From Modestobacter versicolor (lineage in GTDB: Bacteria > Actinomycetota > Actinomycetes > Mycobacteriales > Geodermatophilaceae), in NCBI RefSeq assembly GCF_014195485.1, contig NZ_JACIBU010000002.1, positions 372,001 to 436,000 of the forward strand: a stretch of 64,000 nt of DNA. The letters are read 5' to 3'. Below the pieces are notes generated by a model. It was not told the origin of the DNA and did not search any database. It saw nothing but the letters and a program-made list of their open reading frames with translations. This document shows positions 26,225 to 42,789 of this stretch, piece after piece (the first letter of the stretch is position 1; each line of letters begins with the position of its first letter). Made by a program: the position numbers and the translations under genes.

Positions 26225-26301
26225 TGGTAGCGGGGACAGGATTTGAACCTGTGACCTCTGGGTTATGAGCCCAGCGAGCTACCGAGCTGCTCCACCCCGC
26301 G
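26225..26301 (-). tRNA. tRNA-fMet (initiator, anticodon CAT), copy 1
   Basis: 77 bases with encoded CCA. The anticodon loop is CTCATAA, with an anticodon stem containing three G-C pairs next to the loop. The acceptor end has an unpaired C1-U72; both features mark initiator rather than elongator tRNA. The T-stem outermost pair is A-U here, whereas copy 2 (29316-29392) has G-C. Confidence 0.95.
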
Positions 26302-29315: not shown

Positions 29316-29392
29316 TGGTAGCGGGGGCAGGATTTGAACCTGCGACCTCTGGGTTATGAGCCCAGCGAGCTACCGAGCTGCTCCACCCCGCG
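29316..29392 (-). tRNA. tRNA-fMet (initiator, anticodon CAT), copy 2
   Basis: 77 bases with encoded CCA, identical to copy 1 except for two positions that form one T-stem base pair (G-C here, A-U in copy 1). It shares the unpaired C1-U72 and the three G-C pairs in the anticodon stem. Confidence 0.95.
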
Positions 29393-38955: not shown

Positions 38956-39120
38956 TCACCAGACGGCGGAGTTGGCCCGGGCGGCGCGCTGCGACGCCCT
39001 GGCGGCCCGGCGGTTCCAGCGCCGGGCCGTGGCCAGCCGGCGGGCCCGGGAGGCCCGGTCCGCCTCGGCGATCCGCTGGTCCATGTAGCTGCGGGCCAGG
39101 TCCTGGTCGATCAGGTACAT
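38956..39120 (-). CDS. Small Arg-rich hypothetical protein downstream of whiB7
   Basis: 54 residues: MYLIDQDLARSYMDQRIAEA followed by a basic, Ala/Arg-rich helix ending ANSAVW. I recognise no domain. The non-repetitive N-terminus and a GAGGA ribosome binding site before ATG 39120 support coding. It follows whiB7 by 118 bases on the same strand, so it may belong to the WhiB7 operon. Confidence 0.6.
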   Translation of the reverse strand: MYLIDQDLARSYMDQRIAEADRASRARRLATARRWNRRAARASQRAARANSAVW

Positions 39121-39238: not shown

Positions 39239-39586
39239 TCACGCAGCGGCCTCCGTCCGGACCTTCCGGGGCCGGCCACGGGGCCGCTTGCGGGCGATGA
39301 CGACCCCCCGGTCGAAGATCTCCCCGCCCCAGACGCCCCAGGGCTCGGCCCGGTCGAGCGCACCGGCCAGGCAGGCCGCCCGGACGGGGCACTCGGCGCA
39401 CAGGCTCTTGGCCTGCTCGAGCAGGGCCGGGCTCTCGGCGAACCACAGCTCGGGGTCCTGGACCCGGCAGGGCAGCGCCCGCCGGTTCCCGGCCGGTCGC
39501 GCACCCGCCGGCCCGTCGGTGGACACGTGCGTGCGGTCGAACCCGAGCCGGTGATGGGACGGCGCTGGGTCGATCGTGGTCTGCAC
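39239..39586 (-). CDS. whiB7: Transcriptional regulator WhiB7
   Basis: 115 residues. The Wbl core has the first cysteine in RALPCRVQDPELWFAE, then SLCAECPVRAACLAGAL (C-x-x-C and C) for the [4Fe-4S] cluster, followed by the WGVWGGEIFDRG beta-turn that contacts the sigma factor. The C-terminal AT-hook RKRPRGRPRK is specific to WhiB7/WblC among Wbl proteins. WhiB7 activates intrinsic resistance genes when translation is inhibited. Start GTG 39586 with GGAGGAG upstream. The gene is preceded by a complete attenuation leader (annotated separately), and the neighbours uvrD2 and ABC1 kinase match Rv3197A. Confidence 0.95.
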   Translation of the reverse strand: MQTTIDPAPSHHRLGFDRTHVSTDGPAGARPAGNRRALPCRVQDPELWFAESPALLEQAKSLCAECPVRAACLAGALDRAEPWGVWGGEIFDRGVVIARKRPRGRPRKVRTEAAA

Positions 39587-39686
39587 GGCCGCTCCTCCTC
39601 TTCCTTCGTCTCTGCGGCCGGACGGCGGTGGCCCCGCCGACCGGTGGTCGGTGTGGGGGTCCGCGGCTCAGGTCGCAGAAACGACT

Positions 39687-39724
39687 GAGGCCGCGGTTCC
39701 CGGTGTTCCGGGTTCCGCGGCCTC
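39687..39724 (-). terminator. Attenuator terminator in the whiB7 leader
   Basis: GAGGCCGCGG and CCGCGGCCTC (39687-39696 with 39715-39724, 10 bp) enclose a second stem CCCGG/CCGGG (39699-39703 with 39708-39712). On the minus strand the hairpin is followed by the moderately T-rich AGTCGTTTCTG. It starts 21 bases after the stop codon of the leader ORF and ends about 100 bases before whiB7. Confidence 0.75.
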
Positions 39725-39745
39725 GAGGAGGACCAGCTGACGGTG

Positions 39746-40069
39746 CTAGCTCAGATGGTCTTCCGGGGGCAGGTCACCCGGGGTGCTGCTGGTGTGCTCG
39801 GCGGTGGGGGCGCCGACGACGGCGAACTCCCGCTGAGCGGTCGTGACGGACGGACGGGCGGCGGCGGTGAACGCGCCGGTGGCGGTGCCGGTGGTGCCGG
39901 CGGCGGCGATCAGGCCGCGGAGACGGACGGCGGTGGCGGACCCGGCGACGGGCAGACCGGTGGCGGTCCACGGGGCAACGGAGCCCGGCATCAGGACGGC
40001 CGAGCACAGCCCGACGGCCGGCGGGGTCGCGTCGCCTGCGCCGGTGTAGATGGGATCGGTGCCGATCAC
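39746..40069 (-). CDS. whiB7 leader ORF (uORF), 107 codons
   Basis: GTG at 40069 has the strongest ribosome binding site around, AAGGAGG. The product begins VIGTDPIYTGAGDATPPAVG and is low in charge and rich in Ala, Thr and Gly, with no domain similarity. It lies between the whiB7 promoter and the attenuator. By analogy with whiB7 of mycobacteria and wblC of Streptomyces, its translation, not its product, is probably the sensor: a ribosome stalled by an antibiotic would alter folding and permit read-through. The stop is 21 bases before the terminator. Confidence 0.7.
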   Translation of the reverse strand: MIGTDPIYTGAGDATPPAVGLCSAVLMPGSVAPWTATGLPVAGSATAVRLRGLIAAAGTTGTATGAFTAAARPSVTTAQREFAVVGAPTAEHTSSTPGDLPPEDHLS

Positions 40070-40264
40070 GGGGCCCCTCCTTCCGGGGTCCGGGGCCCGG
40101 CCTGTCGGCCGGTCCCGCTGCGGTCTGGTGCTCGTGCGGTGCGGTGCTGCGGTGCGTCCTGGATCACTCCCAGGTGCTGCAGCGAAGGCTAGGGGACCCC
40201 GCGGAGACGGGTCAAACGAATTAACCGAGATTCCCCAGAAAGGTCGTACTGGCTGGTAGGAGGC
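40070..40264. other. whiB7 promoter/leader region adjoining the uvrD2 3' end
   Basis: 195 bases between the leader ORF start and the uvrD2 stop. It contains the whiB7 promoter and a GC-rich leader beginning near 40179. No coding capacity is evident. Confidence 0.6.
40186..40224 (-). promoter_or_regulatory. whiB7 promoter with AT-rich WhiB7 binding element
   Basis: On the minus strand TTGACC (40215-40210) and TAGCCT (40191-40186) are separated by 18 bases. TTAATT (40224-40219) sits 3 bases upstream of the -35 box, the position where WhiB7's AT-hook binds in mycobacterial promoters. The transcription start should be near 40179, giving a leader of about 590 bases before whiB7. Confidence 0.75.
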
Positions 40265-42283
40265 CTACTCCGCCGACAGCGCGGCCAGCACGTCGGCGCC
40301 GTAGAGCTCCAGCTTCCGGGCGCCGATCCCGGGCAGCGCGGAGAGCTCCCGGACGCTCGACGGCCGGGTCTCGGCGATCGCCTGCAGGGTGGCGTCGGTG
40401 AAGACCACGTAGGCCGGCACCGAGGCCTCCTGCGCGGTGCTGCTCCGCCAGGCCCGCAGCTTCTCGAACAGCTCCCCGGCCTCGCCCTCGAGCACGACCT
40501 TCGGGCGCTTGGCCGGGCGCCGCGGGGCGACCGCGGCGTCGGGGGCGAGCCCGTCGAGGAAGCGGCTGCGCGGCCGGGACCGCCGGCCCCCGGGGTTGCG
40601 CGCCAGCGACCAGGACAGGGTGAGCTGCTCGCGGGCCCGGGTGACGGCGACGTAGAGCAGCCGGCGCTCCTCCTCCACGGCCTCCGGGCGCGACTGGGAC
40701 TGGGCGATCGGCACGACGCCGTCGACCAGGCCGACGACGAACACGGCGTCCCACTCCAGGCCCTTGGCCGCGTGCATCGAGGCGAGCGTCACCCCCTGGA
40801 CGGTGGGCGCGTGCTGGGCGTTGGCCCGCTCGGCCAGGTGCGCCACGAAGCCGGCCAGGTCCAGCGTGGGCTGCTCGGCCACCAGGTCGACGGCGAGGTC
40901 GACGAGCGCGGCCAGGGACTGCCAGCGGTCGCGCGCGGTGCCGCCCGGCGGCGGCCGGTGCTCGACCCAGCCGGTGGAGGCCAGCACGTCGCGGACCGCG
41001 GGCACCAGGGCGCCGGGCTCGTTGCCGCCGGCGGCAGCCCCGCGCAGCAGCAGCACCGCCTCGCGGATCTCCGGCCGCTCGAAGAACCGCTCGCCGCCCT
41101 TGAGCACGTACGGGACGCCGACGTCGGCCAGCGCGGACTCGTAGACCTGGGACTGCGCGTTGATCCGGAACAGCACGGCGATCTCGCTGGCCGGCAGACC
41201 GGAGTCGATCAGCTCGCGGCACGCCCTGGCCACCGCGGCCGCCTCGGCCGGCTCGTCGGGGTGCTCGACGAAGCGCGGCGCGGGGCCCTCGGCCCGCTGG
41301 CCCAGCAGCCGCAGGCCGGGCAGGCCCTTGCGCGGCGGCGCCTGCCCGATCAGCTTGTTCGCCAGGCCGACCACCTGCGGGGTGGAGCGGTAGTCGCGCT
41401 CGAGCTTGACCACCTCGGCGTCGCCGTAGCGGTCGGCGAAGCCCAGCAGGTACTCGGGGTCGGCGCCGGTGAAGGAGTAGATGGTCTGGTTGGGGTCACC
41501 GACGACGCACACCTCGGCGCGGCCACCCAGCCAGGCGTCCAGCAGCCGCTGCTGCAGCGGGTTGACGTCCTGGTACTCGTCGACGACGAAGTGCCGGTAC
41601 TGCGCGCGCACCTCGCGGGCGACGTCGGGGTGCTCCTCGATCGCGTAGGCGGTGACCAGCAGCAGGTCCTCGAAGTCCAGCGAGCCGTCGCGGCTCTTGG
41701 CCTCCTCGTAGCTGCGGTAGACCGCGGCCACCGCGGCGGCGTCGAAGGGCAGGTCGCGGCCGGCGGCGACGGCCCGGGCCGGGTAGTCCTCCGGCGTCGC
41801 CAGGGTGGTCTTGGCCCACTCGATCTCGCTGGCCAGGTCGCGGAGGCTGGTGCGGTCGGTGGTCAGCCGGTTGCGCGTGGCGGCACCGGCGACCACCCGC
41901 AGCTTGTTCTCGATCAGCTCGGGCATCGGGCCGCCGAGCACCCGGGGCGCGAAGTAGCGCAGCTGGCGCATCGCCGCGGCGTGGAAGGTGCGCGCCTGGA
42001 CCCCGCCCACCCCGAGCGCGGAGAGCCGGCCGCGCAGCTCCCCCGCCGCCCGGGCGGTGAAGGTCACGGCGAGGACCTGCTCGGGCACGTACTCCCCGAC
42101 GTGGACGCCGTAGGCGATCCGGTGGGTGATCGTGCGGGTCTTGCCGGTGCCCGCACCGGCGAGGATGCAGACCGGCCCGCGCACCGCCTCCGCCGCGGCC
42201 CGCTGCTGCTCGTCCAGCCCGGAGAGCACCGCCTCCGCGCCCGCCGTCCCGCCGGCTCCCTGCACCTGATCGACCCGCGGCAT
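40265..42283 (-). CDS. uvrD2: ATP-dependent DNA helicase UvrD2 with HRDC domain
   Basis: 672 residues, superfamily 1A. Walker A is LAGAGTGKT (42-49); motif Ia is VLAVTFTARAAGELRGRL; motif II is HFVVDEYQDVNPLQ; motif III is VVGDPNQTIYSFTGADP; motif IV is VKLERDYRST; motif V/VI are LASMHAAKGLEWDAV and LLYVAVTRARE. The C-terminus (last ~80 residues) is an HRDC domain with SSVRELSALPGIGARKLELYG, as in mycobacterial UvrD2. It unwinds DNA 3' to 5' in repair. The start is ATG 42283; GTG 42289 is an alternative. It is divergent from the mycoredoxin gene. Confidence 0.95.
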   Translation of the reverse strand: MPRVDQVQGAGGTAGAEAVLSGLDEQQRAAAEAVRGPVCILAGAGTGKTRTITHRIAYGVHVGEYVPEQVLAVTFTARAAGELRGRLSALGVGGVQARTFHAAAMRQLRYFAPRVLGGPMPELIENKLRVVAGAATRNRLTTDRTSLRDLASEIEWAKTTLATPEDYPARAVAAGRDLPFDAAAVAAVYRSYEEAKSRDGSLDFEDLLLVTAYAIEEHPDVAREVRAQYRHFVVDEYQDVNPLQQRLLDAWLGGRAEVCVVGDPNQTIYSFTGADPEYLLGFADRYGDAEVVKLERDYRSTPQVVGLANKLIGQAPPRKGLPGLRLLGQRAEGPAPRFVEHPDEPAEAAAVARACRELIDSGLPASEIAVLFRINAQSQVYESALADVGVPYVLKGGERFFERPEIREAVLLLRGAAAGGNEPGALVPAVRDVLASTGWVEHRPPPGGTARDRWQSLAALVDLAVDLVAEQPTLDLAGFVAHLAERANAQHAPTVQGVTLASMHAAKGLEWDAVFVVGLVDGVVPIAQSQSRPEAVEEERRLLYVAVTRAREQLTLSWSLARNPGGRRSRPRSRFLDGLAPDAAVAPRRPAKRPKVVLEGEAGELFEKLRAWRSSTAQEASVPAYVVFTDATLQAIAETRPSSVRELSALPGIGARKLELYGADVLAALSAE

Positions 42284-42324
42284 CCCCACGACGAGCAGTC
42301 TCCCAGCCGGCACCGACAGGCGGG

Positions 42325-42350
42325 GGAAGGATCCCCAGGAGCCCGGCGTT
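42325..42350 (+). promoter_or_regulatory. Candidate sigma-R promoter of the mycoredoxin gene
   Basis: GGAAG (42325-42329) is followed after exactly 18 bases by GTT (42348-42350). The fifth base departs from the GGAA(T/C) consensus. Mycoredoxin genes are sigma-R/H regulon members in related Actinobacteria. Confidence 0.35.
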
Positions 42351-42430
42351 GCGCTCGCCGCAGACCCCGACGCACCGGCTCCCCCTCCCCGGGTGGCCCG
42401 CGCGGGGACAGACGAGGGAGGATCCACCCG

Positions 42431-42694
42431 ATGAGCGCTCCGACCGCCGCAGTGACGATGTACACCACCAACTGGTGTGGCTACTGCATGCGCCTGAAGA
42501 AGGTCATGCAGCGCGAGGGCATCGACTTCGCCGAGGTGAACATCGAGGTCGACGAGAGCGCGGCCGACCTGGTCATGAAGGCCAACGGTGGGAACCGCAC
42601 CGTCCCCACCCTGGTGTTCGCCGACGGGAGCGCCCTGACCAACCCGAGCATCGACCAGGTGAAGGCCCAGCTCGCGCAGCTCCCCGGCGCGTGA
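42431..42694 (+). CDS. mrx1: Mycoredoxin
   Basis: 87 residues of the glutaredoxin fold. The active site is YTTNWCGYCMRLKKVM (CGYC), the cis-proline is in NRTVPTLVFADGS, and the C-terminal block is NPSIDQVKAQLAQL. Mycoredoxin-1 reduces mixed disulfides between proteins and mycothiol. ATG 42431 has a GGAGG site 9 bases upstream. It is divergent from uvrD2, the same arrangement as Rv3198A/Rv3198c. Confidence 0.95.
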   Translation: MSAPTAAVTMYTTNWCGYCMRLKKVMQREGIDFAEVNIEVDESAADLVMKANGGNRTVPTLVFADGSALTNPSIDQVKAQLAQLPGA

Positions 42695-42789
42695 TCCCGG
42701 GTCCGCGGCCCCCGGCGGGCGATGATCGTCCCCCGGGGAGCTGCGGCTGCTCTCCCTGCGACCTGCCCGCGGCACCGAGGGAAGGTGCG

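Follow-up and report, generated by a model that had tools for sequence, protein, structure and literature searches.

Leader anatomy suggests ribosome-controlled attenuation of whiB7 in Modestobacter versicolor and other Geodermatophilaceae

Introduction

In actinobacteria, whiB7 couples a slowing of translation to a broad, intrinsic resistance to drugs. The transcription factors of the WhiB7/WblC type possess a C-terminal AT-hook (RGRPRK) and a GVWGG turn, and the usual position of their gene is beside uvrD2. A whiB7 gene with a long leader, containing an open reading frame and a strong hairpin, is located in a stretch of 64,000 nucleotides of Modestobacter versicolor (contig NZ_JACIBU010000002.1, positions 372,001 to 436,000; hereafter the window), which is part of a 4.59-Mb genome. 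The question raised by this locus is whether translation of the leader could decide on transcription of whiB7 and, if so, which RNA strands would pair.

Results

Organization of the locus

The closest named loci were those of Modestobacter and other Geodermatophilaceae. On the minus strand, the elements follow each other in this order:

40265..42775, minus strand: uvrD2-like helicase gene with UvrD and HRDC domains (domain search); the listed ORF begins upstream of the likely true start
40219..40224, minus strand: AT-rich element TTAATT, upstream of the -35 region (sequence; AAT(T) recurrent across the genus)
40186..40215, minus strand: whiB7 promoter TTGACC-N18-TAGCCT (sequence; genus conservation)
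40076..40082, minus strand: Shine-Dalgarno sequence AAGGAGG of the leader ORF (sequence; genus conservation)
39746..40069, minus strand: leader ORF (uORF), 107 codons, GTG at 40069, TAG stop (translation; conserved frame)
39687..39724, minus strand: terminator hairpin T, 10 bp + 5 bp, with a weak U-tract behind it (folding; class-wide core)
39592..39600, minus strand: whiB7 Shine-Dalgarno sequence GAGGAGGAG (sequence and genus alignment)
39239..39586, minus strand: whiB7, 115 amino acids, GTG start at 39586 (Pfam; Cys cluster, GVWGG and AT-hook in the translation)

Re-reading of the minus strand reproduced the coordinates that an earlier note on this DNA had given for all elements of the locus. 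The Whib domain is present in the gene product (PF02467, 6.5e-16), whose C-terminal region reads KRPRGRPRK. Both the AT-hook RGRPRK and the GVWGG turn were thus found in the translation, in agreement with the identification made in the note. The uvrD2-like gene lies directly upstream of the leader; by eye, uvrD2 C-terminal sequence was also recognized upstream of many mycobacterial whiB7 loci. Among 23 genomes of the genus, 22 contained whiB7, and the one without a match is 80% complete. Directly downstream of whiB7, there is a small ORF of 54 amino acids (MYLIDQDLARSYMDQ..., 38956-39120, minus strand), which gave no Pfam or NCBIfam match and whose start region looks alike in several genus members. 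Two tRNA genes (26228-26301 and 29319-29392, minus strand) were the sole Rfam matches at gathering level in the window.

The comparisons were based on a family set of 45 loci, composed of the 22 genus loci and 23 among 80 named loci, and on a class-wide sample of 148 genomes, 128 of which had a whiB7 match and from which 40 leaders were taken. From the named loci, L028-L032 (contigs already in the genus set) and L094 (contig ends) were left out, and L103 (Gordonia) was assigned to no group.

Promoter and possible targets of WhiB7

The promoter consists of the -35 hexamer TTGACC (40215-40210), an 18-nt spacer and the -10 hexamer TAGCCT (40191-40186). Together with TTAATT it had been put forward earlier, and the genome comparison supports it as a promoter of the autoregulatory type kept across the genus: TTGACC was found in 21 of 22 genus leaders, the 680 nt extracted for L020 falling short of the site, and the pattern AATT-N3-TTGAC-N17-19-TANNNT had its sole exact match in the genome at this position. 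A simple sigma-70 promoter scan called no promoter at the whiB7 leader, because TAGCCT is a poor -10 sequence. Scanning the genome for a WhiB7 regulon revealed one further candidate, L109 (contig C1 of this genome, 2754484-2754519, minus strand), a WhiB7-like promoter that departs from the pattern by one mismatch and directly precedes an MFS-type gene (TIGR00900 at 4.5e-7, which does not reach the cut-off of that model). Similar sites exist in two other genomes of the genus (G005 and G006), and the MFS-type gene is a candidate WhiB7 target.

The leader ORF

The 107-codon uORF preceded by AAGGAGG had also been noted earlier; its coordinates were confirmed, and the Shine-Dalgarno sequence and the ends of the uORF recur in the genus, where all 22 loci have a uORF led by a Shine-Dalgarno sequence (90-134 codons). 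Alignments of close relatives (68 pairs) showed 188 gaps within the uORF, of which 186 were multiples of three, compared to 24 of 129 in the leader upstream and 51 of 281 downstream, a contrast that is not to be read as a probability since the pairs share ancestry. Because this contrast of gap phase between the uORF and its flanks is clear, the frame is judged to be translated. Its middle drifts in length and sequence while the ends are fixed; therefore, the uORF probably serves as a stretch of codons that can register any slowing, rather than as a gene for a free protein. Searches of Pfam and NCBIfam with the peptide gave no match, and the PHROGs search gave nothing better than E 0.45. The earlier description of the peptide as rich in alanine and threonine applies to threonine, which is clearly enriched (15% vs 3.2 and 4.4% in two neighbouring proteins), but alanine (19.6%) is only somewhat above the same two neighbours (14.8 and 15.8%) and well below the 34% of mycobacterial uORFs. 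Alanine sensing as in mycobacteria was considered and rejected for the genus, whose uORFs contain 15.8% alanine and are not enriched compared to the two neighbour proteins. Shortly 5' of the uORF Shine-Dalgarno sequence, a hairpin CCGGCCGACAGGCCGG is located (40097-40112, minus strand), whose GGCC arms are conserved across the aligned genus leaders.

uORFs anchored by T were found automatically in 41 of 45 Geodermatophilaceae loci (76-134 codons, median 103). T itself could be anchored by its motif in 43 of the 45; the other two, L041 and L088, carry CAGGCCGCGG. In the four loci without an automatically found uORF, frames of 87-108 codons stop 19-21 nt upstream of T, with start codons that were picked by eye and a poor Shine-Dalgarno sequence in L056 and L073. 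Outside the family, both uORF and T were recovered in 38 of 50 named loci: in 18 of 22 Mycobacterium loci (42-67 codons), six of seven loci of the Rhodococcus-like group and Nocardia (37-109) and 14 of 21 loci of Pseudonocardiales and kin (55-103). In the class-wide sample, 34 of 40 leaders had uORFs of 42-110 codons, among them the seven loci of genus g21 of family f18 (90-110). The overall range is thus 37 to 134 codons. While uORF length varies more than threefold, T follows the stop codon at a distance of 18-25 nt within the family and of 13-35 nt in the other groups. The uORF of the window had been called far longer than its mycobacterial counterparts, which holds for Mycobacterium; its length is, however, ordinary for the family and for much of the class, and it is the mycobacterial uORFs that are short. 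The short mycobacterial version of the leader may be atypical of the class.

The hairpin T

T begins 21 nt past the uORF stop codon and comprises 10 bp, a 2x2 internal loop, 5 bp and a 4-nt loop. It folds at -32.3 kcal/mol (z -8.0), a value reached by none of 200 shuffles. The hairpin recurs across the alignment of the 22 genus loci, and the core GGCC(G/A)CGG was detected in 37 of 40 class-wide leaders. A simple terminator scan called no terminator at T, because the tail behind it (AGTCGTTTCT) is a weak U-tract. Hence, of the nested 10-bp terminator described earlier, a strong and conserved hairpin of the attenuator type stands, but neither the tail nor the scan speaks for a canonical terminator. 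Inverted repeats of the form GGCCGCGG-N6-20-CCGCGGCC occur at 15 places in the genome compared to 21 for a reversed-pattern control, and the bare palindrome is therefore unremarkable. It is the conservation of promoter, Shine-Dalgarno sequence, uORF ends and T that lies above chance, not the bare elements. When the strongest hairpin ahead of whiB7 was picked mechanically, the choice fell on T in only five of 45 family loci, the window among these. Between T and the whiB7 ribosome-binding site, a G+C-rich inverted repeat is located (39650-39610, minus strand), and in several genus loci the strongest hairpin of the mechanical search falls around this repeat.

Candidate antiterminators

Two strands within the uORF were compared as partners of the 5' arm of T, one proposed earlier and one at the end of the frame:

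39912..39920, minus strand: CCGCGGCCT, the strand proposed earlier, inside the uORF; unsupported as a general antiterminator
39751..39781, minus strand: 5' half of the antiterminator proposed here, last ~12 codons, with CCGGGT 39781-39776, GGA 39764-39762, GACCA 39760-39756 and CTGA 39754-39751 (fold; position in relatives; invariant rare codons; inner-helix covariation in other families)
39708..39740, minus strand: its 3' half, overlapping the 5' arm of T, with TCAG 39740-39737, TGGTC 39735-39731, TCC 39729-39727 and ACCCGG 39713-39708 (fold; relatives)
39725..39732, minus strand: spacer TCCTCCTC, complementary to the whiB7 Shine-Dalgarno sequence at 39600-39592 (complement search and folding)

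When RNA ending before the 3' arm of T was folded, most family loci gave a long hairpin made up of the last ~12 uORF codons, the spacer and the 5' arm of T, with the stop codon located within the loop or next to it. When the search was confined to the terminal 60 nt of each uORF, the start of the partner strand lay 33-34 nt before the stop codon in 40 of 41 family loci, and 28 nt before it in L024. By clade, this strand differs along with T (CCGGG:CCCGG vs UCGGG:CCCGA). The C-G pair of Modestobacter is U-A in Blastococcus/Geodermatophilus, a change which T itself does not require and which probably goes back to one event. The own arm was bound better than the mean of the arms of other clades in 22/22, 18/19, 6/6, 11/14 and 10/18 loci. 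Similarly, the last codon changed from Ser to Gly in six genus loci, probably in a single event, and the partner changed too so that the RNA pair was kept.

In 19 leaders of other families, the inner helices, i.e. the stop hairpin and the next helix, reaching the first three bases of T, were 84% paired. Changes on both sides of a pair were counted 15 times compared to 7.0 +- 2.3 in shuffles, none of 500 reaching this number, and the covariation score of 0.303 fell to 0.034-0.168 on sliding. These 19 leaders are a selection from 34, and the helices were set by looking at the sequences; seven g21 loci and L110, L121, L132, L135, L144, L145, L147 and L149 were left out for a differing register or a repeated genus.

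The stop hairpin beat 150 synonymous recodings (p < 0.05) in 18 of 19 Blastococcus/Geodermatophilus loci. At the end of the uORFs, several rare codons are fixed: AGA in 19 of 19 (0% of the Arg codons elsewhere in those uORFs), GGT in 20 of 21 (16% elsewhere), GAA in 12 of 12 (0%) and CCA in 16 of 18 (1%). AGA stands invariantly four codons before the stop in the Blastococcus/Geodermatophilus leaders, e.g. in L033 and L091; RNA pairing can explain this, and a slow decoding step is possible as well. Compared to other windows of the same uORF, the median rank of the stop hairpin was 0.044 in Modestobacter and 0.000 in Blastococcus/Geodermatophilus. The rank was not strong in Mycobacterium (1.000), the Rhodococcus-like group (0.467), Pseudonocardiales (0.713) and the class set (0.419).

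Several results argue against the hairpin across the stop codon. The synonymous-recoding test gave values below 0.05 in only one of 22 loci of the window's genus; in the window, only part of the stop hairpin is kept (4+5 bp), and it is less stable than the mean of its recodings (z +1.1). The test failed in Mycobacterium (mean z +0.2) and in g21 of f18 (+0.7); of the class loci, 12 of 34 passed it. Capture of the arm of T as such beat the recodings in only three of 41 family loci. An outer helix taking the rest of the arm was paired in 6-17 of 19 sequences per pair, and its seven pairs with changes on both sides were equalled when the 3' side was slid by -2 or -3, which leaves this helix unsupported class-wide. 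A consensus fold of the mixed 40-sequence alignment showed no antiterminator, and the family-only consensus consisted mostly of other pairs, the arm of T being nearly invariant there. With T complete, T won at P >= 0.96 for four ribosome positions in five of five loci. Before synthesis of the 3' arm, arm capture was 0.49-0.61 with a ribosome at the stop codon and 0.60-1.00 with one stalled at the start. Equilibrium folds do not show a switch; a switch could therefore only be kinetic.

A competitor of this hairpin is the strand proposed earlier. According to this proposal, the internal CCGCGGCCT copy (39920-39912), whose position was confirmed, pairs with the 5' arm of T as antiterminator in this species. 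It is favoured by the equilibrium fold of the window, in which the internal copy wins and the competing stop hairpin is weakened: in the fold before the 3' arm of T, pairing of the arm with the uORF interior was 0.90 compared to 0.28 +- 0.29 in synonymous shuffles, none of 20 reaching the window's value, and it was 0.56-0.90 in L007, L008, L011 and L013. Moreover, the duplex of the window has -23.2 kcal/mol (p 0.04 vs synonymous and 0.02 vs codon-order shuffles), and ten genus loci carry an exact copy at codons 49-55 (p 0.01-0.06 vs codon-order shuffles). Against synonymous shuffles, however, these ten loci reached only p 0.04-0.19, and they are the only ones with an exact copy there among the 41 family loci, all belonging to the window's genus. 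The mean pairing in the family equals the null (0.22 vs 0.21 in synonymous shuffles of 41 loci), and in L009, L010, L019 and L020 silent and other changes fall within the segment. CCGCGGCCT occurs eight times in the window (5.6 +- 2.4 expected), two of these copies being the arms of T and one the internal copy, which is thus unremarkable, the 9-mer being at chance frequency. The distance of 188 nt would also leave time for local folding first. As a general mechanism the internal copy is unsupported, and for this species we consider it unlikely. The hairpin spanning the uORF stop codon appears partly supported by the comparison of relatives; that the antiterminator lies there rather than in the interior is moderately favoured for the family and, for the window's own leader, comes close to an even chance without reaching it.

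The spacer and the whiB7 Shine-Dalgarno sequence

Between the stop codon and T, 24 of 41 family loci have TCCTCCTC as their longest complement to the whiB7 Shine-Dalgarno region. Complements of at least 7 nt exist in 31 of the 41 loci and in none of 33 loci of other groups, compared to 4-6% of shuffled spacers. Over the 41 loci, pairing of Shine-Dalgarno sequence and spacer averaged 0.62 with T enforced and 0.28 with the 3' arm of T blocked, but pairing of the Shine-Dalgarno sequence of any kind was high in both states (0.84 and 0.70). For this reason, and because of shared ancestry and the generic nature of a Shine-Dalgarno sequence, the complementarity is only a lead. It is conceivable, if rather improbable, that the whiB7 leader of the Geodermatophilaceae works as a double lock within a single RNA strand, in which TCCTCCTC would be part of the antiterminator on stalling and would otherwise pair with the whiB7 ribosome-binding site in leaked transcripts, blocking their translation.

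Discussion

Considering the leader as a whole, it is likely that whiB7 is controlled by a ribosome-dependent transcription attenuator, in which translation of the uORF is coupled to an antiterminator near the end of the uORF. The parts of such a device, the translated frame, the conserved hairpin T, the family's stop-to-T spacing of 18-25 nt and, in relatives, comparative evidence for a part of the antiterminator were seen here. Transcription would start near 40179. In unstressed cells, ribosomes would reach the uORF stop codon and keep the last codons unpaired, T could form and transcripts would end there, before whiB7. Slowing or stalling of ribosomes within the uORF would leave its last ~12 codons free, and these would pair with the spacer and the 5' arm of T on the other side of the stop codon. 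As in the published system, this pairing would precede synthesis of the 3' arm of T, the polymerase would read on, and WhiB7 made by read-through would activate its own promoter.

Alternatively, T might serve RNA processing or structure only, or be a site linked to Rho, with whiB7 controlled at the promoter alone. The weak U-tract of the window and the 15 genome places with such inverted repeats are compatible with this, but T recurs across families with almost constant spacing from a translated uORF, and attenuation of whiB7/wblC has been published for Mycobacterium and Streptomyces; we regard control by the promoter alone as very unlikely. The strong Shine-Dalgarno sequence, the conserved start and end of the peptide and selection on the frame might suggest that the product of the leader ORF is a small, free protein with a function of its own. 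This is very improbable in view of lengths of 76-134 codons and a divergent middle part inside a single family, the missing protein family match, the coincidence of the conserved end residues with RNA pairing and rare codons, and the exchange of the last residue with the RNA pair kept.

The drifting middle of the uORF, its fixed ends and the broad range of inducers would fit a timer, in which slowed ribosomes on a long frame let the polymerase win. If the antiterminator spans the stop codon while uORF lengths extend over 37 to 134 codons, the frame may compare the speed of ribosome and polymerase in this manner. Should this model be true, the uORF would not encode a drug-specific arrest peptide.

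Attenuation of whiB7/wblC mediated by a uORF was reportedly described in Lee 2022 and Burian 2018. The control proposed is thus of a known kind, encountered here in the Modestobacter group, and its anatomical detail may already be contained in Lee 2022. In the literature collection searched, no paper combining whiB7 with Geodermatophilaceae was found, and further listings contained none that names this family in its title. Passages of several publications describe attenuation of actinobacterial whiB7 by a uORF with terminator and antiterminator (PMC11550727, PMC10727445, PMC9618640, PMC13393426), and a passage of a 2025 paper states that antibiotic-induced ribosome stalling inside the whiB7 uORF was untested (PMC12121999). 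Transcription and translation attenuation of a resistance gene is reported for vmlR of Bacillus subtilis (PMC9226507); the gene and sequence of the window are unrelated to it, and the translation layer is only conjectural here. In mycobacteria, the whiB7 transcript is attenuated at the 3' end of the uORF and starts ~350 nt upstream of whiB7 (Dinan 2014, PMC4128351). The leaders of M. marinum and M. bovis contain a uORF led by a Shine-Dalgarno sequence and a stem-loop, likewise found in the window, whose leader is longer, at ~590 nt from its presumed start, with a uORF of 107 codons. In the passages cited, the whiB7/wblC systems comprise a uORF, a Rho-independent terminator before whiB7 and an antiterminator overlapping both uORF and terminator. 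The window has a uORF and, before whiB7, a strong hairpin with a weak U-tract, and a candidate antiterminator would overlap both; what differs from those passages is the occurrence in Geodermatophilaceae, the explicit antiterminator proposed across the uORF stop codon and a spacer that possibly sequesters the Shine-Dalgarno sequence.
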